From Bolinopsis microptera (taxonomy: Eukaryota > Ctenophora > Tentaculata > Lobata > Bolinopsidae): a stretch of DNA of 64,000 bases. The notes beneath the pieces are model-generated. The model worked only from the letters and a program-made list of their open reading frames with translations. It did no database searches and had not been told where the DNA came from. The stretch's first letter is position 1. The number at the start of each line of letters is the position of its first letter. This document shows, one piece after another, positions 3,449 through 60,177 of the stretch. A program made the translations under genes and the position numbers. The stretch lies in contig NC_087075.1 of the NCBI RefSeq assembly GCF_026151205.1, positions 4,314,359 to 4,378,358 of the forward strand. The letters are read 5' to 3'.

Positions 3449-3508
3449 TGTGACCCTAAGGTGAATTAACCGGTTAGTTTCACGTTGTAAAGTTCGAGGA
3501 TTGGGTTT

Positions 3509-3822
3509 GGGACTGGGACTGGGACTGGGACTGGGACTGGGACTGGGACTGGACGACGGGACCGGGACTGGGACTGGGACTGGGACTGGGACTGGGACTG
3601 GGACTGGGACTGGGACTGGGACTGGGACTGGGACTGGGACTGGGACTGGGACTGGGACTGGGACTGGGACTGGGACTGGGACTGGGACTGGGACTGGGAC
3701 TGGGACTGGGACTGGGACTGGGACTGGGACTGGGACTGGGACTGGGACTGGGACTGGGACTGGGACTGGGACTGGGACTGGGACTGGGACTGGGACTGGG
3801 ACTGGGACTGGGACTGGGACTG

Positions 3823-3854
<32 letters not shown>
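3509..3854. repeat. GGGACT hexamer array
   Basis: About 57 nearly perfect GGGACT units with few interruptions (for example GGACGACGGGACC near 3550). The strand asymmetry gives G-triplets every 6 bp, so G-quadruplex formation is plausible. Long VPVPV, SQSQ and GTGT frames across it are artefacts of the repeat. Confidence 0.95.
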
Positions 3855-20397: not shown

Positions 20398-20550
20398 GGT
20401 AACCTGGTAACTTGGTAACCTGGTAACTTGGTAACCTGGTAACCTGGTTACCTGGTAACCTGGTAACCTGGTAACCTGGTAACCTGGTAACCTGGTAACC
20501 TGGTAACCTGGTTACCTGGTAACCTGGTAACCTGGTAACCTGGTTACCTG
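20398..20550. repeat. GGTAACCT octamer array
   Basis: About 19 units of GGTAACCT with GGTAACTT and GGTTACCT variants. The core GGTNACC is self-complementary, so the array can fold on either strand. The same octamer recurs inverted at 21.0-21.5 kb and again at 34.1-34.3 and 34.6 kb. Confidence 0.95.
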
Positions 20551-21565: not shown

Positions 21566-21730
21566 GACGGCCTCTACTCAGTGGAGTTAGCAGTGATTAT
21601 CAGTAGCAGGTGAGGTAAGTGTTGACATATTATCAACTCACCAAACCAGTCAACTTGAAACATATTCCAGATCAGGAAACAAATCTACAGTATTACACGT
21701 GTCAGATTATCATGTGGAATGTTACTACAA

Positions 21731-23620
21731 GAGGCCCTGAAACACGGACCCTAGTGAGAGGCCCTGAAACACGGACCCTTAGTGAGAGGCCCTGAAACAC
21801 GGACCCTAGTGAGAGGCCCTGAAACACGGACCCTTAGTGAGAGGCCCTGAAACACGGACCCTTAGTGAGAGGCCCTGAAACACGGACCCTTAGTGAGAGG
21901 CCCTGAAACACGGACCCTTAGTGAGAGGCCCTGAAACACGGACCCTTAGTGAGAGGCCCTGAAACACGGACCCTTAGTGAGAGGCCCTGAAACACGGACC
22001 CTTAGTGAGAGGCCCTGAAACACGGACCCTTAGTGAGAGGCCCTGAAACACGGACCCTTAGTGAGAGGCCCTGAAACACGGACCCTAGTGAGAGGCCCTG
22101 AAACACGGACCCTTAGTGAGAGGCCCTGAAACACGGACCCTAGTGAGAGGCCCTGAAACACGGACCCTTAGTGAGAGGCCCTGAAACACGGACCCTAGTG
22201 AGAGGCCCTGAAACACGGACCCTTAGTGAGAGGCCCTGAAACACGGACCCTAGTGAGAGGCCCTGAAACACGGACCCTTAGTGAGAGGCCCTGAAACACG
22301 GACCCTAGTGAGAGGCCCTGAAACACGGACCCTAGTGAGAGGCCCTGAAACACGGACCCTAGTGAGAGGCCCTGAAACACGGACCCTTAGTGAGAGGCCC
22401 TGAAACACGGACCCTTAGTGAGAGGCCCTGAAACACGGACCCTTAGTGAGAGGCCCTGAAACACGGACCCTTAGTGAGAGGCCCTGAAACACGGACCCTT
22501 AGTGAGAGGCCCTGAAACACGGACCCTTAGTGAGAGGCCCTGAAACACGGACCCTTAGTGAGAGGCCCTGAAACACGGACCCTTAGTGAGAGGCCCTGAA
22601 ACACGGACCCTTAGTGAGAGGCCCTGAAACACGGACCCTTAGTGAGAGGCCCTGAAACACGGACCCTTAGTGAGAGGCCCTGAAACACGGACCCTTAGTG
22701 AGAGGCCCTGAAACACGGACCCTAGTGAGAGGCCCTGAAACACGGACCCTAGTGAGAGGCCCTGAAACACGGACCCTAGTGAGAGGCCCTGAAACACGGA
22801 CCCTTAGTGAGAGGCCCTGAAACACGGACCCTTAGTGAGAGGCCCTGAAACACGGACCCTTAGTGAGAGGCCCTGAAACACGGACCCTAGTGAGAGGCCC
22901 TGAAACACGGACCCTTAGTGAGAGGCCCTGAAACACGGACCCTAGTGAGAGGCCCTGAAACACGGACCCTTAGTGAGAGGCCCTGAAACACGGACCCTTA
23001 GTGAGAGGCCCTGAAACACGGACCCTTAGTGAGAGGCCCTGAAACACGGACCCTTAGTGAGAGGCCCTGAAACACGGACCCTTAGTGAGAGGCCCTGAAA
23101 CACGGACCCTTAGTGAGAGGCCCTGAAACACGGACCCTAGTGAGAGGCCCTGAAACACGGACCCTAGTGAGAGGCCCTGAAACACGGACCCTAGTGAGAG
23201 GCCCTGAAACACGGACCCTTAGTGAGAGGCCCTGAAACACGGACCCTTAGTGAGAGGCCCTGAAACACGGACCCTTAGTGAGAGGCCCTGAAACACGGAC
23301 CCTAGTGAGAGGCCCTGAAACACGGACCCTTAGTGAGAGGCCCTGAAACACGGACCCTAGTGAGAGGCCCTGAAACACGGACCCTTAGTGAGAGGCCCTG
23401 AAACACGGACCCTTAGTGAGAGGCCCTGAAACACGGACCCTTAGTGAGAGGCCCTGAAACACGGACCCTTAGTGAGAGGCCCTGAAACACGGACCCTAGT
23501 GAGAGGCCCTGAAACACGGACCCTAGTGAGAGGCCCTGAAACACGGACCCTTAGTGAGAGGCCCTGAAACACGGACCCTTAGTGAGAGGCCCTGAAACAC
23601 GGACCCTCAGTGAGAGGCCC
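21731..23620. repeat. 27/28-bp satellite, about 68 copies
   Basis: Unit GAGGCCCTGAAACACGGACC plus CTTAGTGA (28 bp) or CTAGTGA (27 bp). Apart from this single T the copies are identical; the last has CTCAGTGA. The order of the two unit types is itself repeated (see findings). No transcript or protein is indicated. Confidence 0.97.
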
Positions 23621-27461: not shown

Positions 27462-28667
27462 TTAGGATTTACAACTGCAACAACTACAACTTCTCACGTT
27501 CAAGATATAGAGGAGCAGCCCTTCATCGCACTGGATTCCGGTAGCTTTCTCGAGAGGTTTGAGTTTGAAAAGCTTAATTCTGAACTGACTTTTGAGTGCA
27601 GCTTTGCGAATAGGAAAGTAACTTACTTCGGTGATTTACCTTACAAGTACACTGGGGGTTATCACAAGAAGAAGGCCTTGCCAAATGATTCATATCTCAC
27701 TGAAATTCTACTTGCTGTGGCGGATATGTGCAAATCAAATGATATTGATTACTCCGAGTTCAATAGCTTCATGGTGACTAAGTATGATACCCCCGACGAT
27801 TACATACCCCCTCACTCGGATGATGAACAGTGTATAGCTAGAGATAGTAATATTCTCACAGTTTCTTTCGGGGGAGCTCGAGAAGTTGTTTTCCGTCGCC
27901 GCCCACCTGGCGAATACCGCAAACAGAGCTTAACTGTGAAGCACGGCGAGTGCTACGTCATGTCACGTAAATCTCAGGATAGTTTTGACCATGCCGTCCC
28001 CAAGGTTGATCCTGCTAATTTTGACAGGCCGAGGATTAGTATAACACTTCGAAAATTGACCCCTAACATCCCACAAATCCCCGCCAATGAACCTCAGCGA
28101 CCCAAACGGGTGTTAGTATTATCAGACAGTAAAAACTCTTCTTTCGACTGTTCCAAGTTTAAAGCGCCCGTAGTTGCCTTCCGCGAAAATCTCTTCCTGC
28201 TGCGCGATCTTGAGGAACACAAAGAATCTATCAAATCCTCGGACATAGTTCTTATTAGTGCTGGGGTAAACGACATGAGGAAAAATGGTGTGAACGCCCA
28301 AATTTTGCATGATCATGTCAGAAACTTTGTCGTACAGTATCCGAAAACCCAGTTTCTATTTGATTCCGTTACAAACGTGACCATGAATGCAGACCCGTAC
28401 AATGAACTGAACCCGAACATTAACTTCTTCAATCAGCTTATGTTTAAATGCTCCCTTCGTCATGCCAACATACATCTGTTTGATAACCTATCGTTCGGAT
28501 GGGGTCATCTAGCACGTGACGGCCTACACTTTAACTACAGCGGACAGAAAGTCACGTCTGATACCTGGGTCCATGTTGTATTAGTCTGCCTTGGATTTAG
28601 ACGTGGCCCTTTACCACTACGTTATGACTTTGTGAAATTGCATGAAGAGTCTCAGTCCTGGAAATGA
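27462..28667 (+). CDS. AlkB-like dioxygenase fused to SGNH esterase (LINE ORF1, 5'-partial)
   Basis: Open for 401 codons from the base after a stop at 27459-27461 to TGA at 28665-28667, with no ATG before codon 89, inside the first domain. Codons about 15-200 are an AlkB-type 2OG-Fe(II) dioxygenase. The NRKVTYFGDLPYKY segment precedes the core; the iron ligands are HSD (118-120) and His177 (FDHAVP); the 2-oxoglutarate Arg is in RISITLR (191-197), matching the family's Arg-x5-Arg. Codons about 215-375 are SGNH-hydrolase-like: LSDSK for block I, AGVNDM for the GxND block, DGLHFNYSG for the DxxH block. AlkB proteins demethylate nucleic-acid bases; SGNH esterases occur in ORF1 of CR1/L2 LINEs. 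A combined role in protecting or processing element RNA/DNA is inference. The missing start suggests truncation or an unseen upstream exon. Confidence 0.8.
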   Translation, partial: LGFTTATTTTSHVQDIEEQPFIALDSGSFLERFEFEKLNSELTFECSFANRKVTYFGDLPYKYTGGYHKKKALPNDSYLTEILLAVADMCKSNDIDYSEFNSFMVTKYDTPDDYIPPHSDDEQCIARDSNILTVSFGGAREVVFRRRPPGEYRKQSLTVKHGECYVMSRKSQDSFDHAVPKVDPANFDRPRISITLRKLTPNIPQIPANEPQRPKRVLVLSDSKNSSFDCSKFKAPVVAFRENLFLLRDLEEHKESIKSSDIVLISAGVNDMRKNGVNAQILHDHVRNFVVQYPKTQFLFDSVTNVTMNADPYNELNPNINFFNQLMFKCSLRHANIHLFDNLSFGWGHLARDGLHFNYSGQKVTSDTWVHVVLVCLGFRRGPLPLRYDFVKLHEESQSWK

Positions 28668-29355
28668 ACGATAAATCCATTTAACAGAATAGTAAAGTTT
28701 CAATTTAGAGATCAAAGTATAAATCGTATGTGACCAAATATTTAAGTCTTTAGAAATGCACTGAACACAAGAAACAAAATCAATTTCCAACAAAATAATA
28801 CTTACTACAAACTTTATGCTCGGCCTTGTAACTTGATGCAAGAGTAGCGAATTTAAATGTCTAATCTTCTTTTTAGAGAGATAACGCCGATGATAAGGCG
28901 ACTTACATTAAAAAGTAATTAAGTACACGTAATTTGCCACACGCGATTCCGGTGCCATGTACTCGGCACTGAAATACATTGTACACACTCTGCACTATGC
29001 AGATACACTGACAGACACACTGACTAGTGACTTACAACAACACAAGCAAGCTGTTGCCAAGTGCAACATAAAATGTCTGAATCTCTACGGTTGCTAGGTA
29101 ACCAAAAAGTAGAATTTTCAGTCTAGTAAAGAGTAAATTGTAAACACAGTTTTTCGTTTTTCAATTTTTAATTTTTGACGATAATCTCTCACACAGAACT
29201 GAAAGTTCTCGTTAGATTTATCAAATTAATTTTCTTATTTTTCTTACTTCTTCCTCTCTTTTCTCCTCCTCCTTTTTCTTTCTCTTGGTATATCTATATA
29301 TAGAGACCGCAGGTATAAATACTTATCGGTGAATCTCGGTAATTGCAATCTTTAA
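28668..29355 (+). promoter_or_regulatory. Inter-ORF spacer with polypyrimidine tract and TATA-like site
   Basis: 688 bp without coding potential between the two frames. It ends with a T/C-rich tract (about 29228-29287), a CTATATATAGAG palindrome near 29299 and GTATAAATAC near 29313, then ORF2's ATG at 29356. This may be the promoter or translation-entry region of ORF2, or the true 5' UTR of a one-ORF LINE (inference). Confidence 0.35.
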
Positions 29356-32300
29356 ATGTCAAGCTTACCTAAAGCGAAAGTTTGTGATAAATGTAACAAA
29401 CGTATTCCAAAAACCGCGCCTCTGCTTACTTGCTCACTTTGCAACGACACCAAGCATCCTAAATGTATGAGACTCTCGAAATCTGATTCCCTGCACATAA
29501 TATCTTCAGGCTTTTCTTGGACCTGTTACGATTGTTTAGCCAGTGCCCTCCCTATCAATGCGTGCCATTCACCAGTCGAGAAGCCTGCATTCGGGCCTGT
29601 ATTCAAAGTTAAATGCAATTCCTGTGCAGGATGGTGCTATTCACCAAAAAACCTAAGATATTGTAACTGGTGTGGAAAAAGTATACATTCCAAGTGTATG
29701 AAACACGAGTTAGGTTGTAAAACATGTTGTGAATCTATGATTCCTGGTTTCAACTACGAACCACACCATCTACTTGATGATTACAGCCACCTACATGACT
29801 TATTTTTTAATCCATATGATAGAGAAAACATTGCAAATGATATAGGTAATCAACTTGATGATGAACAGGACAGGGAGTACTTTGATGAAATTTCAAATAT
29901 ACTGGTAGAATGTAGATATAAGGAACAGAAGCACGTACAGAACTCAGGAGCAAACGAGCTGAAATTATTTTCACTGAATATTCGATCGCTGATCAAGAAT
30001 ATTGAACACCTGCGAGAAAACATAGAAACATACTGCAAGTACGATGTCCTATGTCTGAACGAAACCAATCTCATTGAATCCAATTTGCCCAATGGCGTAA
30101 CTGATATTTTACTCGAGGGTTTCCATGAACCTCTACTTAAGGGCCCAAACAGAACTTCGGGTCGGGGTGGTGGTCTTGCAATTTATATCAATAAGCGAGT
30201 GTGTGAGTTTGAGAATATTGAACAATTTATTCCTAATCTCCGGGACGTAGATGAGATCACCAAATCGGCAGGTGAATTCATGTTGGTGAAAATTAACAAC
30301 TGTAAAGGACTCAACAAAACCAAACTAATTGTTGACGTTTATAGGTCTCCATCACGTGACCCCGATAAGTTCATAGCTTTACTTGATTCCGTACTATTAA
30401 GCTTAGACCGTCACAACAGAAAACACATAATGTTTGCTGGAGATTTTAATTTAGACCTCATAAACCACAGCAACAATGTACATTGCCAAAATCTAGTGGA
30501 CACCATGTCGAAATACGGTTTTTTTCAGCTTGTTGCACGACCAACACGAGTTACAAGTCACAGCAGGACCTTAATTGATCATGTCTACAGCAACGATGTT
30601 CAGCATACTCTCAGTTGCAATGTCCTGACAGTTGACATTTCAGACCATTTTGCCACCTTGACTACGATCTCTCTTGGTGATTTCTCTTACAGTCCTGCTA
30701 ATGATCGATCCAAAACCGAACGATCACAAAAGCGTGATACACGTGCATTCAACGCCGCTAATAACTTAAAATTTTACGAACTGATCGACGCTGAAAATTG
30801 GGAGCAAATAACATCAAACATGGATGCTAATGAGCAGTATGATAAGTTCAACGAAATTTACAACAAGCACTATAACACCGCGTATCCAATCAAATCTAAG
30901 CATGTCAGAAGGATGAATGAAAGGAAAAACCCCAAGCCTTTTATTCTGCCGTGGCTTGAAGACGCGTGTGCTCGAAAAAACTTGATGTATTTTGAATCCA
31001 CAGTTTGCCCCACACAGAAAAATGTTGCTACGTACAAAAAATTGAAAAATTTTTGTGAAAAACATATCAATCTAGCAAGGGACAAATACCACAAAAAATA
31101 CTTTGAAGAATATCAGTACAATTCCAAGAAACAGTGGGAGATGATAAATAAACTTCTAGGCAGGAAAGCTAAGCAAAATTCCAAATTCAAATTGAGGAGA
31201 GATGATGGAAACTTGATAAATTCGAACCGCGATGTTGCTGAACATTTCAACGCGTACTTTGCTAATATAGCAACTAGAATCAAAGATCAGATCAGTGCGC
31301 GTACCACTTTCGACCCTGGCGGGCATGCAAGATATTTAGACAGCCAGGTTGAGGAGAGCATGTTCATCTCGCCAACTGATCCTGTCGAAATCCAACGAAC
31401 AATATGTACCTTGAAAAATAAGGCCACACAGGATGTAAAAGTTGAGCCGCTCAAGATTGCCAAGGATTGTCCTAAGTTTTGTGGAATACTCTCAAATGTA
31501 GTAAATTCTTCCTTCAATGAAGGCTGCTTTCCGACATCACTGAAAATTGCAAAGGTAGTTCCTATCCTTAAGGGAGGCTCAAAACTAGATGTGAAAAACT
31601 ACAGACCAATATCATTGCTCTGCACCTTTTCAAAAATCTATGAGAAACTCATGCACAGAAGAGTCCTTGACTTCCTGGAGCGACATAGCACTTTATTTGA
31701 AGGACAATACGGTTTTCGGCCGGGTCGGTCGTGTGAACATGCGCTCCTTGATGCAACCAACACGATTAGACACAACCTCTCCAAAAAAGAGGTCTCTCTA
31801 CTCCTCCTACTTGATTTTAGCAAAGCGTTTGATGTAATTTCCCACGATATTCTCTTAGACAAACTGTATCATTATGGCATAAGAGGACTAGCACACCAAT
31901 GGTTCAAGTCTTATCTAAGTTCCAGGAGTCAGTATGTTTCAATAGGGGGCACAAATTCTTCCTCACAGTCCATGAGACACGGAGTGCCGCAAGGCAGTAT
32001 TTTAGGACCTTTACTTTTCATAATATATATCAATGACATGCCAAAAATCAAATCGTACGCTAAATTTGTTTTATATGCTGACGACGCAAACATAATTATC
32101 TCAGGTAAAAATCATCAAGAAATACTACAAAAGATGACCGAATTTTCACCTTTATTGATAAACTGGGTAGATCAAAATGGTCTTTCGTTAAACCTTAAGA
32201 AAACGAGCTACATGCTCCTCTCACCCAACAGAACCTCAACACCTGACGTAAATATTCAAATTGCAGGCACCACTATTGAGCGAAAAACTGAGGCCCGATT

Positions 32301-33018
32301 TCTTGGCGTAATTGTTGACGAAAAATTGACCTGGACCAGTCACATTACTGCTCTTAAAGCGAAAATGATGCGGTATATTGGTATTATGTACAAAATAAAA
32401 AGTCGGCTGCCGATTAAAGTTAGACTCCAGATATACCAAAGCTTTGTACAGTCTCATATAAACTATTGTTCATTGATATGGGGTTTTGCTGCAAAAAGCC
32501 ATATAGATGCTTTATTCAGCAAACAGAAGCAAGGAATAAGGGCTATTATGCCTGGCTTCGTAAACTACTACTTTAAGGAAGGTGCCTTACCACAACACAC
32601 AAAGCCATTTTTCAGTGAACATGAAATTCTCACTGTGCATGGTCTTATCGTTTACAACTCAATTATCTTGATGCATAAAGTTAAAAACATGCCACAATTA
32701 GTCCCCAAAAACATCTCTCAAGCTTTTCCCGCCGACATACCCACAAAACTTTCTGATCACACGTCAGCCTGCTCCTGGCTCCAGTTATACGGGAAAAGAC
32801 ACTTTCAAAACAGTATTTTCTACAAGGGACCACTGCTCTCTGTCTTCGCAGACAAAGCAGACGTTACTACACTTCCGACATTATTTTCGATAAATCTGTT
32901 CAAGAGTAGTGCCAAGAAAATGCTACTTAATCTTCAAAGTGATGGTGATGTTAACGAGTGGCAACCATTCCTACTGCACAATGTTCCTGGCCTAAGACAG
33001 TCTAGACGTGAAATTTAA
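29356..33018 (+). CDS. LINE ORF2: PHD finger, endonuclease, reverse transcriptase
   Basis: 1220 residues, ATG to TAA, uninterrupted. Residues 10-60 form a PHD-type finger (KVCDKC, LTCSLC, KHPKC, WTCYDC). Residues 87-125 are a second Cys/His cluster (CNSC, CNWC, HSKC, CKTC). Residues 203-435 are an AP-type endonuclease: SLNIRSL, LNET, YRSPS, AGDFNLDL and SDH. Residues about 730-1000 are the reverse transcriptase: PISLL, FEGQYGFRPGRS, LLDFSKAFD, GVPQGSILGPLL and catalytic YADD (907-910). The C-terminal 200 residues form the usual thumb and tail without an RNase H. Target-primed reverse transcription is the known mechanism of the class. All motifs are intact, so this copy is young and may be active if ORF1 is not required from this copy. 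CR1/L2-Jockey group by domain order; exact clade needs a tree. Confidence 0.95.
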   Translation: MSSLPKAKVCDKCNKRIPKTAPLLTCSLCNDTKHPKCMRLSKSDSLHIISSGFSWTCYDCLASALPINACHSPVEKPAFGPVFKVKCNSCAGWCYSPKNLRYCNWCGKSIHSKCMKHELGCKTCCESMIPGFNYEPHHLLDDYSHLHDLFFNPYDRENIANDIGNQLDDEQDREYFDEISNILVECRYKEQKHVQNSGANELKLFSLNIRSLIKNIEHLRENIETYCKYDVLCLNETNLIESNLPNGVTDILLEGFHEPLLKGPNRTSGRGGGLAIYINKRVCEFENIEQFIPNLRDVDEITKSAGEFMLVKINNCKGLNKTKLIVDVYRSPSRDPDKFIALLDSVLLSLDRHNRKHIMFAGDFNLDLINHSNNVHCQNLVDTMSKYGFFQLVARPTRVTSHSRTLIDHVYSNDVQHTLSCNVLTVDISDHFATLTTISLGDFSYSPANDRSKTERSQKRDTRAFNAANNLKFYELIDAENWEQITSNMDANEQYDKFNEIYNKHYNTAYPIKSKHVRRMNERKNPKPFILPWLEDACARKNLMYFESTVCPTQKNVATYKKLKNFCEKHINLARDKYHKKYFEEYQYNSKKQWEMINKLLGRKAKQNSKFKLRRDDGNLINSNRDVAEHFNAYFANIATRIKDQISARTTFDPGGHARYLDSQVEESMFISPTDPVEIQRTICTLKNKATQDVKVEPLKIAKDCPKFCGILSNVVNSSFNEGCFPTSLKIAKVVPILKGGSKLDVKNYRPISLLCTFSKIYEKLMHRRVLDFLERHSTLFEGQYGFRPGRSCEHALLDATNTIRHNLSKKEVSLLLLLDFSKAFDVISHDILLDKLYHYGIRGLAHQWFKSYLSSRSQYVSIGGTNSSSQSMRHGVPQGSILGPLLFIIYINDMPKIKSYAKFVLYADDANIIISGKNHQEILQKMTEFSPLLINWVDQNGLSLNLKKTSYMLLSPNRTSTPDVNIQIAGTTIERKTEARFLGVIVDEKLTWTSHITALKAKMMRYIGIMYKIKSRLPIKVRLQIYQSFVQSHINYCSLIWGFAAKSHIDALFSKQKQGIRAIMPGFVNYYFKEGALPQHTKPFFSEHEILTVHGLIVYNSIILMHKVKNMPQLVPKNISQAFPADIPTKLSDHTSACSWLQLYGKRHFQNSIFYKGPLLSVFADKADVTTLPTLFSINLFKSSAKKMLLNLQSDGDVNEWQPFLLHNVPGLRQSRREI

Positions 33019-33640
33019 ACTTTTAACATTTAACCTGAATCGAATTTCAACTGAAACGAATATAATCTAAGTTTAAATTAAGTCTATTGTCTAATTAATG
33101 GCTTGCAACAGGGAGCAGTATGAAAATCACACAACCCAGCACATAGAAACTACACTAAATGACACAAATTTAAATGACAACTCGCAATTACTGACTACCA
33201 ATATAATAACCGCTCGCATAACTACCCCCACTTAGCGTAGATAAGCAAGCATTTCACTGCCGCTAAATTCTTTTTCCATACATTAATCTCAATCGCGCAC
33301 TCATAATTACTGTAAGCGCTGAGTTACCGGCCAAAATCATTAATCACTGATGGTAAAATTTTGCACAAAATTTTAAAAACAATAGTCCAAGCTGTTCAGT
33401 GCAATTCTAAACTTCTTAACCTATAGGTTATGGATGTGTAATATCATGTGTAGCGTGAAGCGTTGTGTTTTTTAAATCTGTAGTTCATAGTACTTCATGA
33501 TCACAGTGTACTTTTTGATAAACCGTGTGCAGTGCCCTTTCCAGAGGGTTTTTTTAAAAGAATTCTTTAACGTTACTATTTTCTATCTATTACTGTTTGT
33601 ATTATAATTTTGAGTAAACATTAATCGAGTAAACCGCTCG
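33019..33640 (+). other. Probable LINE 3' UTR
   Basis: AT-rich, non-coding, ending in GTATTATAATTTTGAGTAAA near 33600-33620, which resembles LINE 3' ends; the boundary is a guess. Confidence 0.35.
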
Positions 33641-34108
33641 ATTCCCAATCAACATACCGTTATTAAACAGCAGTCCAGGAATCAGAGTGACACAGCTAAA
33701 GACCCTGAGATTCCTTCCAAAAGATCCATTTGTCTGTGACAGAAAGACAGTGACATGTTGGCAAAGGAGAATGTACCAGGCTCTGATTCCCAGAGCAGGG
33801 CCTGACTGTGATTCTGAGAGCTGTCAAGCCTGACTGACCTGTCCGACCTCCGTCCCGTTCATTTATTCCTTACGAGAAAGTTCGATCTAAGGTTTAAATT
33901 GTCATGACATAATTCCGTTTATAGCTTCCAAAGAATTTAAAAGAGTCTTTATTTTAATTACAAATGCCAATCAAGGTATGGGAAGAATGTGTTCAGAGTA
34001 GTCCCAGAACAAAGCTTCTTATAAGGGCATCACGTGGTATAAATCATAAAGCACGACAACAAGTTAAAGCCTACACTTGATAGATCCTCCACTGTAGCCT
34101 GGATACTT
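33641..34108. other. No gene recognised
   Basis: One copy of the dispersed CTTATAAGGGCATCACGTG motif at 34018-34036. The only other item noted is the phrase CTGTAGCCTGGATA before the octamer array, which recurs after it. Confidence 0.35.
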
Positions 34109-34298
34109 GGTAACCTGGTAACCTGGTAACCTGGTAACCTGGTAACCTGGTAACCTGGTAACCTGATAACCTGGTAACCTGGTAACCTGGTAACCTGGTA
34201 ACCTGGTAACCTGGTAACCTGGTAACCTGGTAACCTGGTAACCTGGTAACCTGGTAACCTGGTAACCTGGTAACCTGGTAACCTGGTAACCTGATAAC
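34109..34298. repeat. GGTAACCT octamer array
   Basis: About 24 near-perfect octamers, same unit as at 20.4 kb. It is bracketed by two copies of ACTGTAGCCTGGATA (about 34091 and 34320), suggesting array growth between a duplicated flank. A run of about 13 G follows near 34362. Confidence 0.95.
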
Positions 34299-39788: not shown

Positions 39789-40243
39789 AAATACAGAAAC
39801 ACAGGAACACAACATGTGAGTGATTGCGAGGAATACGTGATATTACAGAGCACCTTCGACACTGCAATAATACTATAATACAGGGACCTCATTGAAAAAT
39901 GATCCCTTATATTCATGCTCTAAATGCAACATTAGACTTGGCAGTCAGTGAGTATTGTGCGGAAAAAGGAGCTCAACTCCCAATCTAATGATAATATATA
40001 GATCTGCACTTGGCAACTGCCACTAACACTGTAACCATTAGCAGTAGCTAACTGACACTGTAGCTACTAGCTCACTAGTAACTGGGTTTAACTGGAATAC
40101 AGTGAGTATAGTTAATATAGTGAATATTGAAATACAATAATATTATAATATAATATAATAATATAATATTGAAATACAAAAATTATATACTGAGCTGCGC
40201 TTCTGAACACATAATGTGAGTGATTATTACTCAAACAATCAGG
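39420..40243. other. No gene recognised; CT microsatellite
   Basis: (CT)n at about 39750-39786 is bracketed by CAGAAATACAGAAACACA on both sides. The rest is AT-rich. Confidence 0.6.
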
Positions 40244-42262
40244 TAAATAATGCAGTACATGTATTGTAAATAATGCAGTACATGTATTGTACATAATGCA
40301 GTATATGTATTGTAAATAATGCAGTACTTGTATATTGTAAATAATGCAGTACATGTATTGTAAATAATGCAGTACTTGTATTGTAAATAATGCAGTACAT
40401 GTATATTGTAAATAATGCAGTACATGTATTGTAAATAATACAGTACTTTTATGTTGTAAATAATGCAGTACATGTATTGTAAATAATGCAGTACATGTAT
40501 TGTAAATAATGCAGTACATGTATTGTAAATAATGCAGTACATGTATTGTAAATAATGCAGTACATGTATTGTAAATAATACAGTACATGTATTGTAAATA
40601 ATGCAGTACATGTATTGTAAATAATACAGTACATGTATTGTAAATAATGCAGTACATGTATTGTAGATAATGCAGTACATGTATTGTAAATAATGCAGTA
40701 CATGTATATTGTAAATAATGCAGTGCATGTATTGTAAATAATACAGTACATGTATTGTAAATAATGCAGTACATGTATTGTAAATAATGCAGTACATGTA
40801 TTGTAAATAATGCAGTACATATATTGTAAATAATGCAGTACTTGTATATTGTAAATAAGGCAGTACATGTATTGTAAATAATGCAGTACATATATTGTAA
40901 ATAATGCAGTACTTGTATATTGTAAATAATACGGTACTGTATTGTAAATAATGCAGTACATGTATTGTAAATAATGCAGTACATATATTGTAAATAATGC
41001 AGTACTTGTATATTGTAAATAAGGCAGTACATGTATTGTAAATAATGCAGTACATATATTGTAAATAATGCAGTACTTGTATATTGTAAATAATGCAGTA
41101 CTTGCATATTGTAAATAATGCAGTACATGTATTGTAAATAATGCAGTACATGTATTGTACATAATGCAGTACTTGTATATTGTAAATAATGCAGTACTTG
41201 TATATTGTAAATAATGCAGTACATGTATATTGTAAATAATGCAGTACATGTATTGTAAATAATGCAGTACATGTATATTGTGAATAATGCAGTACATGTA
41301 TTGTAAATAATGCAGTACTTGTATATTGTAAATAATGCAGTACATGTATATTGTAAATAATGCAGTACATGTATTGTAAATAATACAGTACTTGTATATT
41401 GTAAATAATGCAGTACATGTATATTGTAAACAATGCAGTACTTGTATATTGTAAATAATGCAGTACATGTATTGTAAATAATGCAGTACATGTATATTGT
41501 AAATAATGCATTGTATTGTAAATAATACGGTACTGTATTGTAAATAATGCAGTACATGTATATTGTAAATAATACGGTACTACATATTGTAAATAATGCA
41601 GTACATGTACATTGTAAATAATACGGTACTATATTGTAAATAATGCAGTACATGTATTGTAAATAATGCAGTACTTGTATATTGTAAATAATGCAGTACG
41701 TGTATTGTAAATAATGCAGTACTTGTATATTGTAAATAATACAGTACATGTATTGTAAATAATACAGTACTTGTATATTGTAAATAATACAGTACATGTA
41801 TATTGTAAATAATGCAGTACATGTATTGTAAATAATGCAGTACTACATATTGTAAATAATACAGTACTACATATTGTAAATAATGCAGTATATGTACATT
41901 GTAAATAATACGGTACTATATTGTAAATAATGCAGTACATGTATTGTAAATAATGCAGTACATGTATTGTAAATAATACGGTACTACATATTGTAAATAA
42001 TACAGTACTTGTATATTGTAAATAATACGGTACTACATATTGTAAATAATGCAGTACTTGTATATTGTAAATAATGCAGTACATGTACATTGTAAATAAT
42101 ACGGTACTATATTGTAAATAATGCAGTACATGTATTGTAAATAATACGGTACTACATATTGTAAATAATGCAGTACTTGTATATTGTAAATAATGCAGTA
42201 CTTGTATATTGTAAATAATGCAGTACTTGTATATTGTAAATAATGCAGTACATGTATATTGT
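40244..42262. repeat. 2-kb AT-rich 23/25-bp satellite
   Basis: About 85 units of TGTAAATAATGCAGTACATG plus TAT, with 25-bp versions (CTTGTATAT) and shorter TACGGTACTA versions mostly to the right of 41.5 kb. Overlapping long minus-strand frames (up to 561 codons) exist only because the unit lacks stops in those frames; not a gene. Confidence 0.97.
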
Positions 42263-42965: not shown

Positions 42966-44738
42966 CGGCTAGTATGTAATAGTAGCACCACTATAATAAC
43001 CGAGCAGCACAAGGCTAGTATGTAATAGTAGCACCACTATAACCGAGCAGCACAAGGCTAGTATGTAATAGTAGCACCACTATAACCGAGCAGCACAAGG
43101 CTAGTATGTAATAGTAGCACCGCTATAACCGAGCAGCACAAGGCTAGTATGTAATAGTAGCACCACTATAACCGAGCAGCACAAGGCTAGTATGTAATAG
43201 TAGCACCACTATAACCGAGCAGCACAAGGCTAGTATGTAATAGTAGCACCGCTATAACCGAGCAGCACAAGGCTAGTATGTAATAGTAGCACCACTATAA
43301 CCGAGCAGCACAAGGCTAGTATGTAATAGTAGCACCGCTATAACCGAGCAGCACAAGGCTAGTATGTAATAGTAGCACCACTATAACCGAGCAGCACAAG
43401 GCTAGTATGTTATAGTAGCACCACTATAACCGAGCAGCACAAGGCTAGTATGTAATAGTAGCACCACTATAACCGAGCAGCACAAGGCTAGTATGTAATA
43501 GTAGCACCACTATAACCGAGCAGCACAAGGCTAGTATGTAATAGTAGCACCACTATAACCGAGCAGCACAAGGCTAGTATGTAATAGTAGCACCGCTATA
43601 ACCGAGCAGCACAAGGCTAGTATGTAATAGTAGCACCACTATAACCGAGCAGCACAAGGCTAGTATGTAATAGTAGCACCACTATAACCGAGCAGCACAA
43701 GGCTAGTATGTAATAGTAGCACCACTATAACCGAGCAACACAAGGCTAGTATGTAATAGTAGCACCACTATAACCGAGCAGCACAAGGCTAGTATGTAAT
43801 AGTAGCACCGCTATAACCGAGCAGCACAAGGCTAGTATGTAATAGTAGCACCACTATAATAACCGAGCAGCACAAGGCTAGTATGTAATAGTAGCACCAC
43901 TATAACCGAGCAGCACAAGGCTAGTATGTAATAGTAGCACCACTATAACCGAGCAGCACAAGGCTAGTATGTAATAGTAGCACCACTATAACCGAGCAGC
44001 ACAAGGCTAGTATGTAATAGTAGCACCACTATAACCGAGCAGCACAAGGCTAGTATGTAATAGTAGCACCACTATAACCGAGCAGCACAAGGCTAGTATG
44101 TAACAGTAGCACCACTATAACCGAGCAGCACAAGGCTAGTATGTAATAGTAGCACCACTATAACCGAGCAGCACAAGGCTAGTATGTAATAGTAGCACCA
44201 CTATAACCGAGCAGCACAAGGCTAGTATGTAACAGTAGCACCACTATAACCGAGCAGCACAAGGCTAGTATGTAACAGTAGCACCACTATAACCGAGCAG
44301 CACAAGGCTAGTATGTAACAGTAGCACCACTATAACCGAGCAGCACAAGGCTAGTATGTAATAGTAACACCACTATAACCGAGCAGCACAAGGCTAGTAT
44401 GTAATAGTAGCACCACTATAACCGAGCAGCACAAGGCTAGTATGTAATAGTAGCACCTCTATAACCGAGCAGCACAAGGCTAGTATGTAATAGTAGCACC
44501 GCTATAACCGAGCAGCACAAGGCTAGTATGTAATAGTAGCACCACTATAACCGAGCAGCACAAGGCTAGTATGTAATAGTAGCACCACTATAACCGAGCA
44601 GCACAAGGCTAGTATGTAATAGTAGCACCACTATAACCGAGCAGCACCAGGCTAGTATGTAATAGTAGCACCACTATAACCGAGCAGCACAAGGCTAGTA
44701 TGTAATAGTAGCACCACTATAACCGAGCAGCACAAGGA
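42966..44738. repeat. 43-bp satellite, about 41 copies
   Basis: Unit: CACAAGGCTAGTATGTAATA then GTAGCACCACTATAACCGAGCAG. Variants are ACCGC for ACCAC, AACAG for AATAG (clustered around 44100-44330) and ATAATAACC at the first copy and near 43857. The array is strictly head to tail. Confidence 0.97.
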
Positions 44739-44874: not shown

Positions 44875-45191
<317 letters not shown>

Positions 45192-58244: not shown

Positions 58245-58587
58245 CTGAAAAAAAAATTGTAAATTAAAGTCTGTTTATGAGGTCACCGTGCTCTTAAACT
58301 TAATTAGTGTGCGTTACCTTATCCAACTTTATCTGCACGGAAATTAAGTGGAAGCTGGAAGCCTTAGCGTTCATATTTCTGTCCGTTCAAATAAACTTGG
58401 TCCGTTTACAGTCCGTCCAAGCTAAAGTACACTTAAATGTTTCCCTGACATGAAGTACTTACTATCCAAGAAATGAATTCTTTTAAAAAGTAAATGCATA
58501 TTACATATATAGCTAGATGTTCAGAAGTTGGAGTGATAATAAGGTTAATGAGTGTTAATAATAATTATAAAGGAAGTTTACTCTTAC

Positions 58588-59827
58588 CCAACAGTCCCCA
58601 ACTGGAAGACAGTTGCTGGAACAGTTCCTCCGTCAGCACCTTGTTGTAGTAGGGAGTGGTGTATAGGACATCCCACCTGGTGATGTACTTATATGTCCTG
58701 GCGGTCTCCAGCTGGGTCAGTGTGCTTGTTAGGGAAGTTGAGCAGGTATCCAGCTTCTCCCCTGTCTTGTTGTGCTGCGCTGACTCTGTCTGCAGTTCTT
58801 CTTGAGTGACATTCAGTACACCTTTTACTGTTCCTAGCTCTTCCTGAGTGGTATTCAGTTCCTCCTGGGTGGAATTCAGCTGTCCGATTACCGATTCCAT
58901 TGCAGCGTCTGTTTTGTTGAGGTCCCTGGTGACTACGTCTAGCTTCTCCTCAGTAGAGTTCAGTTTACCTCGCACAGCTCCTAGCTCTTCAATAGTGGTA
59001 TTCAGTTCACCTCTCACAGCTCCTAGCTCTTCAATAGTGGTATTCAGTTTATCCTCCGTCTCACTTAGTTGACTTTCCGTTTCGTTCAGCCGTCCAGTCA
59101 CATTGGCCAGCTCCTCTTGTGACCTCTTCAATCGAGTTTTTAAACACTCCACCATATCATTATCATCAATCTCTACCTCTCTCACAGATCCGCTCCTGGA
59201 CTGGGACAGTATGTGTTCCCATCGCAGATCCCCAGTTCCAGAGAATTCTGTAAGGTCCGAACACATTCCACCTTCTGCTATTTTCTTTACATCAGCCGAG
59301 CTGAGTGCCTCAGAGAATATGTTGAACTGGTAAATCTGGCCTCCGAAAATGCTACTAGAACTTGTACTGTAAGAAAATCTATTGAAGAACAGAGTTCCTC
59401 CCATTTTCAGTGTTCTTCCAGAATCTGTCGTACCTGTGCCTATCAAATTACCGTCAAGATACAGGTTGATGCTCCTCGAGGCGAGTGACCAAGTAATACA
59501 ATAGTGAAACCAGCTCCTGACAGGTGTTGTGAACACACTCTCCTTATAGTTCAAATCTCCATCTCCTACTACGTGGTTGTAGTGCCCATTAGAAGTTATC
59601 AAGATCTCATTGCCACTTGCATAGTAGTTAAACACTAGCGGGTAACTGTTAGAGGTGTCTACACGTTTTATCCAACTACAGATGGAAAAGGAATCTTGGA
59701 ACGGGGCCATATTATAAGTAAATCCAATGTAGTCATTACTGGAGGTACCAAAGTGAAGAGCAGTGTACTGCTTATCATCAGAGGCAACAGTAGGTAAGAC
59801 GATGACGACGATCAACAAGAGGAACAT
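58588..59827 (-). CDS. Exon 1 of secreted laminin-G/coiled-coil gene
   Basis: ATG 59827-59825; 413 codons plus one base to the donor TTGG|GTAAGAG (58588/58587). Without splicing the frame would stop after six more codons. Residues 1-16 (MFLLLIVVIVLPTVAS) are a signal peptide. Residues about 20-190 are a laminin-G/pentraxin-like jelly-roll (ALHFG, FSICSWIKR, WFHYCITW, INLYLDGNLIGTG, GGQIYQFNIFSEAL). Residues about 225-370 are a long coiled coil of repeated units such as LNTTIEELGAVRGE, unusual in carrying many NxT/NxS glycosylation sites (NVT, NET, NTT, NST, NKT). The full product is about 490 residues. It is probably a secreted or extracellular-matrix protein that oligomerises through the coiled coil and binds a glycan or surface ligand through the LamG head (inference). 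The gene appears complete. Confidence 0.9.
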
Positions 59828-60177
59828 AACTGCGGTTTGCGAGCGGGAATTGAAGCTAATATTATCTAGTCAGAGTATGCGGAGGTGTCACACAAAAGTT
59901 GGAACTTTCGAGAGCAGAGCTGATTTGTTTCAATATGAACCTACATGGAACCGCTAACATTTTAACGCTAGATAATGTAACGGGGTGGCACGAAAACCCT
60001 CATAGAGCTAGCAGTCTAGAAATTGATAATTTATCATTCATATTTTTAAGATCAGGCGAGGATTCGCCCCAAGTTCAGAAGTCTTATCGTGGTACGAAGT
60101 TATTTATAATACACACGAGACCGGTAGCGTGTTAACAACAAGTTGGGATTCAAATTAGAGGGTATAATTCTTTTGAA
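59828..60177. other. Upstream region of the laminin-G gene
   Basis: Should hold the promoter of the minus-strand gene; no clear TATA or CCAAT/E-box cluster is visible here. The first bases repeat TAATATTATCTAG/CGCTAGATAATG-like words. Confidence 0.3.

Follow-up and report, generated by a model that had tools for sequence, protein, structure and literature searches.

In a 64,000-nucleotide stretch of the genome of the comb jelly Bolinopsis microptera (hereafter the window; C4:4314359-4378358 of the 264.65-Mb assembly), an open frame of 401 codons (27462-28667, forward strand) joins an AlkB-type dioxygenase to an SGNH esterase. This locus raises the question of whether the fusion constitutes the first open reading frame (ORF1) of a long interspersed nuclear element (LINE), as had been proposed from the letters of the window (the original prediction), and what a nucleic-acid demethylase might do there. 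Other copies were sought in the same genome. Our results support the assignment of the frame to ORF1 of a multi-copy LINE; a host gene with introns, or a frame that adjoins the element by chance, does not fit, because independent sites as well as diverged lineages show the same order of parts, almost equally spaced, with invariant catalytic residues. The window copy, designated L011, has the following parts:

27488..33655 (+): 5′-truncated LINE copy L011 (approximately 6.17 of 6.78 kb), delimited by blastn against the full-length copies L012-L014
27488..28667 (+): what remains of ORF1 (AlkB-SGNH) after loss of the first ~129 of 521 codons; stop codon at 28665-28667
27507..28064 (+): AlkB (2OG-Fe(II) dioxygenase) domain, frame residues 16-201
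27813-27815, 27819-27821 and 27825-27827 (+): AlkB residues H118, D120 and E122
27990-27992, 28032-28034 and 28050-28052 (+): AlkB residues H177, R191 and R197
28092..28601 (+): SGNH esterase domain, frame residues 211-380
28128-28130, 28263-28265, 28269-28271 and 28527-28529 (+): SGNH residues S223, G268, N270 and H356
28668..29355 (+): inter-ORF spacer, 688 nt
29356..33018 (+): ORF2, 1220 aa, intact
33019..33655 (+): 3′ untranslated region and terminus, with an inverted repeat CGAG..CTCG (33626-33640), CCCAAT and a short ATCA-type tail

The three full-length copies (L012, L013 and L014; 6.78 kb, 99.72-99.91% identical) are located elsewhere in the same genome, and L011 shares 99.72-99.90% identity with them across 6162-6169 bp. 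This homology begins at window position 27488, inside ORF1 (L011 position 2527), and ends at 33649-33655. The predicted frame does contain 401 codons, but approximately its first 26 nt (27462-27487) are flanking DNA. Because the homology begins inside ORF1 and the first Met remaining in the frame is residue 89, L011 is unable to make a normal ORF1 protein.

Full-length ORF1 encodes 521 aa (counted from the first Met) and is uninterrupted in L012, L013 and L014, which contradicts an origin as a single-copy, intron-bearing host gene. The product is comprised of (i) an N-terminal part that is helical and includes a long helix, (ii) the AlkB domain and (iii) a C-terminal SGNH esterase; Pfam gave no support for a SAP-like domain at the N-terminus in any of four ORF1 members. 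The AlkB domain (PF13532; E 2.1e-15, above the curated cut-off) forms a double-stranded beta-helix and contains, within one frame as had been predicted, the HxD..H (H118, D120, H177) and Arg-x5-Arg (R191, R197) residues. The match to the GDSL/SGNH family (PF13472; E 8.4e-5) lies below the cut-off. The catalytic Ser (S223), the oxyanion Gly/Asn (G268, N270) and the Asp-x-x-His motif (H356) of an SGNH hydrolase are all present; the predicted esterase blocks thus stand, except that block I reads S-D-S, not G-D-S.

The intact finger-endonuclease-RT frame described downstream on the same strand was likewise found (RT, reverse transcriptase). Its Pfam matches are to RT (PF00078; E 3.2e-36), endonuclease (PF03372; E 6.6e-13) and PHD_4 (E 1.3e-4, below the cut-off), and the protein contains a PHD-like Cys/His finger and a second Cys-rich finger (both recognized by eye), an AP-type endonuclease (residues 206-431) and an RT (residues 745-987). 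An APE-type endonuclease and an RT within one ORF2 are as expected of a LINE, and human LINE-1 ORF2 is among the best-scoring solved relatives. The frame is free of stops in four copies, three of which are 99.75-99.92% identical to the ORF2 of the fourth, L012. By its layout, and not by comparison with named reference RTs, the element is CR1/L2-like. Among the matches listed, protein relatives from named organisms derive from Mnemiopsis leidyi (P0002 and P0195 for ORF1, P0140 for ORF2), the sole other labelled relative being a short ORF1 record (P0051) of a Planctomycetes metagenome-assembled genome; a further ORF2 relative, P0070 (99%), has 21 member sequences. No related locus was confirmed in the collections of viral contigs and genome contigs. 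Linkage of ORF1 and ORF2 in other genomes was also sought through equal record sizes, which gave 0 matches for 69 ORF1 hits against 120 listed ORF2 rows, and three for 51 further ORF1 hits against the same rows, about the number expected by chance on a rough estimate; this approach was dropped.

The element is a young LINE with recent mobility. L012 lies in a satellite array, and L013 interrupts, on the opposite strand, the RT gene of another LINE. When the flanks of L013 were joined, all 600 codons examined were open at 4 of 13 junction offsets (-5, -2, +1 and +4, which correspond to one frame). No obvious target-site duplication was seen by eye at the six copies with displayed ends; the flanks of L013 rejoin open within a few bases. 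The inverted repeat and the CCCAAT end occur in five of these six copies (L011-L014 and L029), L015 ending otherwise, and the tails differ, often being of the ATCA type. The copies are thus dispersed, in part 5′-truncated, and carry variable simple 3′ tails, as is characteristic of LINEs.

Searches of the genome revealed at least 106 matches to ORF1, five of them with internal stops (103 of 737 candidates scored), and at least 38 RT matches to ORF2 (38 of 7047 candidates scored). At 23 of the 38 RT places, a same-strand AlkB-ORF1 match lies no more than 3 kb upstream. Five of the other 15 places were read upstream, three start inside ORF2 (at residues 204, 388 and 445) and seven were left unread. 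In this partial check for RT copies that lack the fusion, one of the five (L035) proved to have a divergent AlkB ORF1 upstream, outside the ORF1 match list, and four (L036-L039; 1.8-2.5 kb read in each) look 5′-truncated, their homology either stopping in the spacer or reaching no further than the end part of ORF1. At C1:20004135, one of the seven unread places, pieces of ORF1 occur approximately 4.7 kb upstream.

In the reverse direction, the top 20 ORF1 loci (L011-L030) and four lower-ranked ones (L031-L034) of the 106 were read. Same-strand RT sequence, intact or broken, lies downstream at 19 of the top 20; in the exception, L021, homology to L016 ends before ORF2. The spacer measures 687 nt in L012-L014, 698 nt in L015, 657 nt in L029 and 673 nt in L030. 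In a subfamily of 59% identity it is 794-836 nt in eight of nine measured copies (L017, L021, L025 and L028 are not counted) and 1723 nt in L024.

The AlkB-ORF1 layout spans distant LINEs. The ORF1s of four divergent lineages (L032, L033, L034 and L035) all match PF13532 at 7e-16 or better. Their downstream frames match the endonuclease in all four cases (L033 at just 1.9e-4, below the cut-off), and an RT was found in all three whose RT falls within the stretch read. At E≤0.1, Pfam detected an esterase in L033 and, weakly (0.039), in L032; it saw none in L034 or L035, the C-termini of which align with that of L032 at 44%; only L032 among the four has a PHD match in ORF2 (0.0057). The RT of L033 is 39% identical to that of the window element, its esterase approximately 20% identical, and its ORF2 lacks a Pfam PHD match. 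L033, read in one copy, shares its match range with 27 further ORF1 places, and 19 of these 28 lie in 630-aa frames. Within-genome trees of seven rows, compared by reading, showed no conflict between the AlkB and endonuclease topologies, with few strongly supported forks; a single old acquisition of the AlkB domain, carried along in LINEs ever since, is a possible explanation of this sequence pattern.

A search with the AlkB family alone (150 of 587 candidates scored) gave at least 151 matches in open frames of many sizes, a figure that covers AlkB matches of any kind, LINE or not. Among the best was L041 (C2:9636400+), a frame of 505 aa that carries an R/G-rich stretch as well as the motif H-A-D-D-E, which is ALKBH2/3-like. 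It may be a host ALKBH gene, from which the LINE domain could have been derived. Very long open frames (2225-3388 aa) contain AlkB domains as well, for example C10:16875843+, C3:14441692-, C12:8338315- and C9:15868177+. In L042, 400 codons of one such frame that are open throughout, an AlkB-like H-K-D-D-E motif is followed by a repetitive linker. Esterase-only matches were found at C1:18539002- and C8:8269545-, within open frames of 986 and 1019 aa; these are perhaps other fusions.

Conservation was assessed in three alignments: A1 (the window and 37 of 69 ORF1 hits; 38 rows), A3 (9 sequences of this genome, including the window, and 3 hits) and A5 (35 of the same 69 hits and 7 of 51 further hits; 42 rows). 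H118, D120, H177, R191, R197, S223, N270 and H356 are invariant in 38/38 rows of A1, as is G268. Since 43 of the 401 columns are invariant, the hypergeometric probability for eight of eight residues is 9e-9, kinship being ignored. In A5 the five AlkB iron/2-oxoglutarate residues and the esterase S, G, N and H are invariant in 42/42 rows. The esterase Asp is kept in 37/38 rows of A1 and 34/42 of A5, and the predicted dioxygenase site is therefore held more strictly than the putative esterase triad. Codon-model estimates of omega were 0.08-0.09 for AlkB, 0.06-0.08 for SGNH, 0.02-0.04 for the endonuclease and 0.02-0.03 for RT, and are weak, as they derive from three or four sequences (four lineages for AlkB) with saturated synonymous divergence (dS); in pairwise NG86 comparisons dS was undefined except in one pair.

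When a 12-row ORF1 profile was compared with chains of solved structure, the matches at E≤0.01 included just two AlkB homologues by name, ALKBH3 (5.8e-30) and ALKBH2 (4.6e-23), the remainder being hydrolase-fold chains; among the best 60 of 68 matches to E 10, ALKBH7 (0.5) and the uncharacterised P8A3.02c (0.2) also align with the AlkB region. Identity to human ALKBH3 and ALKBH2 is 22-26%. Among solved proteins these two are thus the closest in sequence and fold, with an HxDxE substrate site, and ALKBH5 is not the nearest relative. The active-site signature reads H-S-D-D-E, with E122 two residues past the Asp of HxD; a Glu occupies this position in 37/38, 12/12 and 41/42 rows of A1, A3 and A5, respectively. 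By motif spacing, E122 matches D135 of Escherichia coli AlkB. According to PMC7968990, D135 adjoins N6 of N1-methyladenine (m1A), the wild-type enzyme prefers m1A and N3-methylcytosine (m3C), the D135I variant gains activity on N6-methyladenine (m6A), and tRNA modifications, including m1A, impede reverse transcription unless AlkB first takes them off. The signature and the best matches point to putative removal of m1A/m3C rather than erasure of m6A. For this reason evasion of methyl-mark silencing, which the original prediction had offered beside protection of the RNA, is the less favoured half of that proposal.

Several known systems resemble the element in part. AlkB domains occur in plant RNA viruses, which are likewise selfish RNA elements, inside the viral replicase polyprotein, whereas here the domain lies in a retrotransposon ORF1. 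Compared with human ALKBH3 and ALKBH2, it is part of a multidomain transposon protein. The ORF1 profile also matches chain 4c1b, named an ORF1-encoded protein (E 0.0016), which we take to be the esterase of zebrafish ZfL2-1; in the structure comparison, the 50 rows listed include no LINE esterase structure, and nothing is inferred from them. ZfL2-1 is one of the CR1/L2 LINEs with a type IV (esterase) ORF1, with which the present element shares the helical N-terminus, the C-terminal SGNH esterase and the endonuclease-RT ORF2; it differs in the AlkB dioxygenase between helix and esterase and in the PHD-like finger of ORF2. PMC3905857 describes ZfL2-1 ORF1 as a coiled coil joined through a poorly conserved linker to an esterase that is active and binds lipids. 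None of the ORF1 types of PMC4120745 has an AlkB domain, as far as the absence of ‘alkb’ and ‘oxygenase’ from its main text indicates. The nearest analogue (PMC9289625) is the ALKBH5-like domain of Ty3/Gypsy elements of the orchid Phalaenopsis, which are also retrotransposons encoding an AlkB-family dioxygenase. Those, however, are long terminal repeat elements with an ALKBH5-like m6A demethylase in a separate ORF, in contrast to the ALKBH2/3-like esterase fusion of a LINE found here. In agreement with the original prediction, no LINE with AlkB appeared among the papers listed by searches of the open full-text literature; subscription papers and Repbase reports lie outside this search, and priority is not established.

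The best explanation, to which we assign a probability of about 0.5, is a young LINE whose ALKBH2/3-type AlkB domain cleans its own template for RT. The likeness to ALKBH3/ALKBH2, E122 and the findings of PMC7968990 lead us to infer such an m1A/m3C demethylase, including its activity, its substrate, its RNA target and its benefit to the element. The ORF1 protein would package the element RNA, multimerising through the long helix, and the esterase may act at membranes, a role that the literature has suggested for ZfL2-1. The AlkB domain would oxidatively strip m1A and m3C from the element RNA or first-strand cDNA; because these lesions block reverse transcription, a template cleaned by the element itself should give a higher yield of full-length copies. 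A fuller version, which we hold more tentatively, is that a working demethylase clears the element’s own RNA and/or single-stranded DNA (ssDNA) during target-primed reverse transcription, is ancestral and retained in comb-jelly LINEs, and helped to yield well over a hundred AlkB domains in one animal genome.

Several observations weigh against this explanation. L031 gave no PF13532 match at E≤0.1, only weak ones to PF03171 (0.012) and PF13472 (0.0021), although its AlkB motif residues align; its RT match is partial (33%), with broken frames. Between lineages, AlkB is 42-61% identical (four compared), below the 59-68% of endonuclease and RT (three compared), and the few codon changes among near-identical copies are about equally silent and not, so that selection is neither shown nor excluded. 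The role on template RNA is a proposal, and ABH2-DNA complexes are the top matches in the structure comparison, scoring as high as ALKBH3. The last point favours a DNA target, i.e. repair of 3mC/1mA in the single-stranded target or cDNA at integration, or protection from 3mC as a by-product of DNA methyltransferases. The sequence is nearer to ALKBH3, whose substrates are ssDNA and RNA, and ORF1 proteins are presumed to package RNA, both of which make a DNA target rather improbable. In its favour, ALKB2 is reported to co-evolve with DNMT1/3, which is ascribed to the 3mC they produce, and CG methylation is present in the comb jelly Mnemiopsis (PMC9246332).

The AlkB domain could instead serve within ORF1 mainly as a nucleic-acid-binding or chaperone module, with catalysis secondary, providing the RNA-binding domain that esterase ORF1 proteins lack. 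It occupies the place of the linker, between the long helix and the esterase, and the RepBase esterase ORF1 proteins reportedly have no structural RNA-binding domain, consisting of coiled coil, poorly conserved linker and esterase (PMC3905857). Binding alone would not require the strict invariance of the five iron/2-oxoglutarate residues, and we consider this role, too, rather improbable. An m6A eraser that hides the element RNA from host m6A readers has been proposed for the orchid elements, whose ALKBH5-like domain demethylates m6A in vitro (PMC9289625); with the signature described above, such an activity seems unlikely here. A host AlkB-esterase gene placed beside a LINE by chance, or an assembly artefact, would not be excluded by the window alone. 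This idea found no support, and it is refuted by the three full-length copies elsewhere with their uninterrupted 521-aa frames, by the RT downstream at 19/20 ORF1 loci and by the insertion of L013 into the RT gene of another LINE; hardly any weight is left to it.

The surroundings of L011 in the window are repetitive. Long tandem arrays (units of 2-48 bp, 87-100% matches) occupy 3508-3854, 20398-20550, 21730-23620, 40243-42257, 42967-44737 and 44878-45188, and an 8-bp GGTAACC-type unit flanks the LINE on both sides (also at 34108-34298). At 58565-59869 (-), an open frame of 434 aa, probably a host gene, encodes a lectin domain of Laminin-G/pentraxin-like type (PF13385; 5.2e-15) and perhaps a coiled coil. 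No Rfam family reached its gathering score in the window.

Little is understood of LINE ORF1 proteins; those known to us have a binding or an esterase domain, not an enzyme that modifies nucleic acids. Conservation of a dioxygenase in ORF1 would imply that retrotransposition suffers so much from chemical damage or methylation of template RNA that elements bring along a remedy, an idea that becomes testable with one purified protein. If true, the element would couple the removal of lesions to reverse transcription by natural means, a combination of use in sequencing modified RNA.
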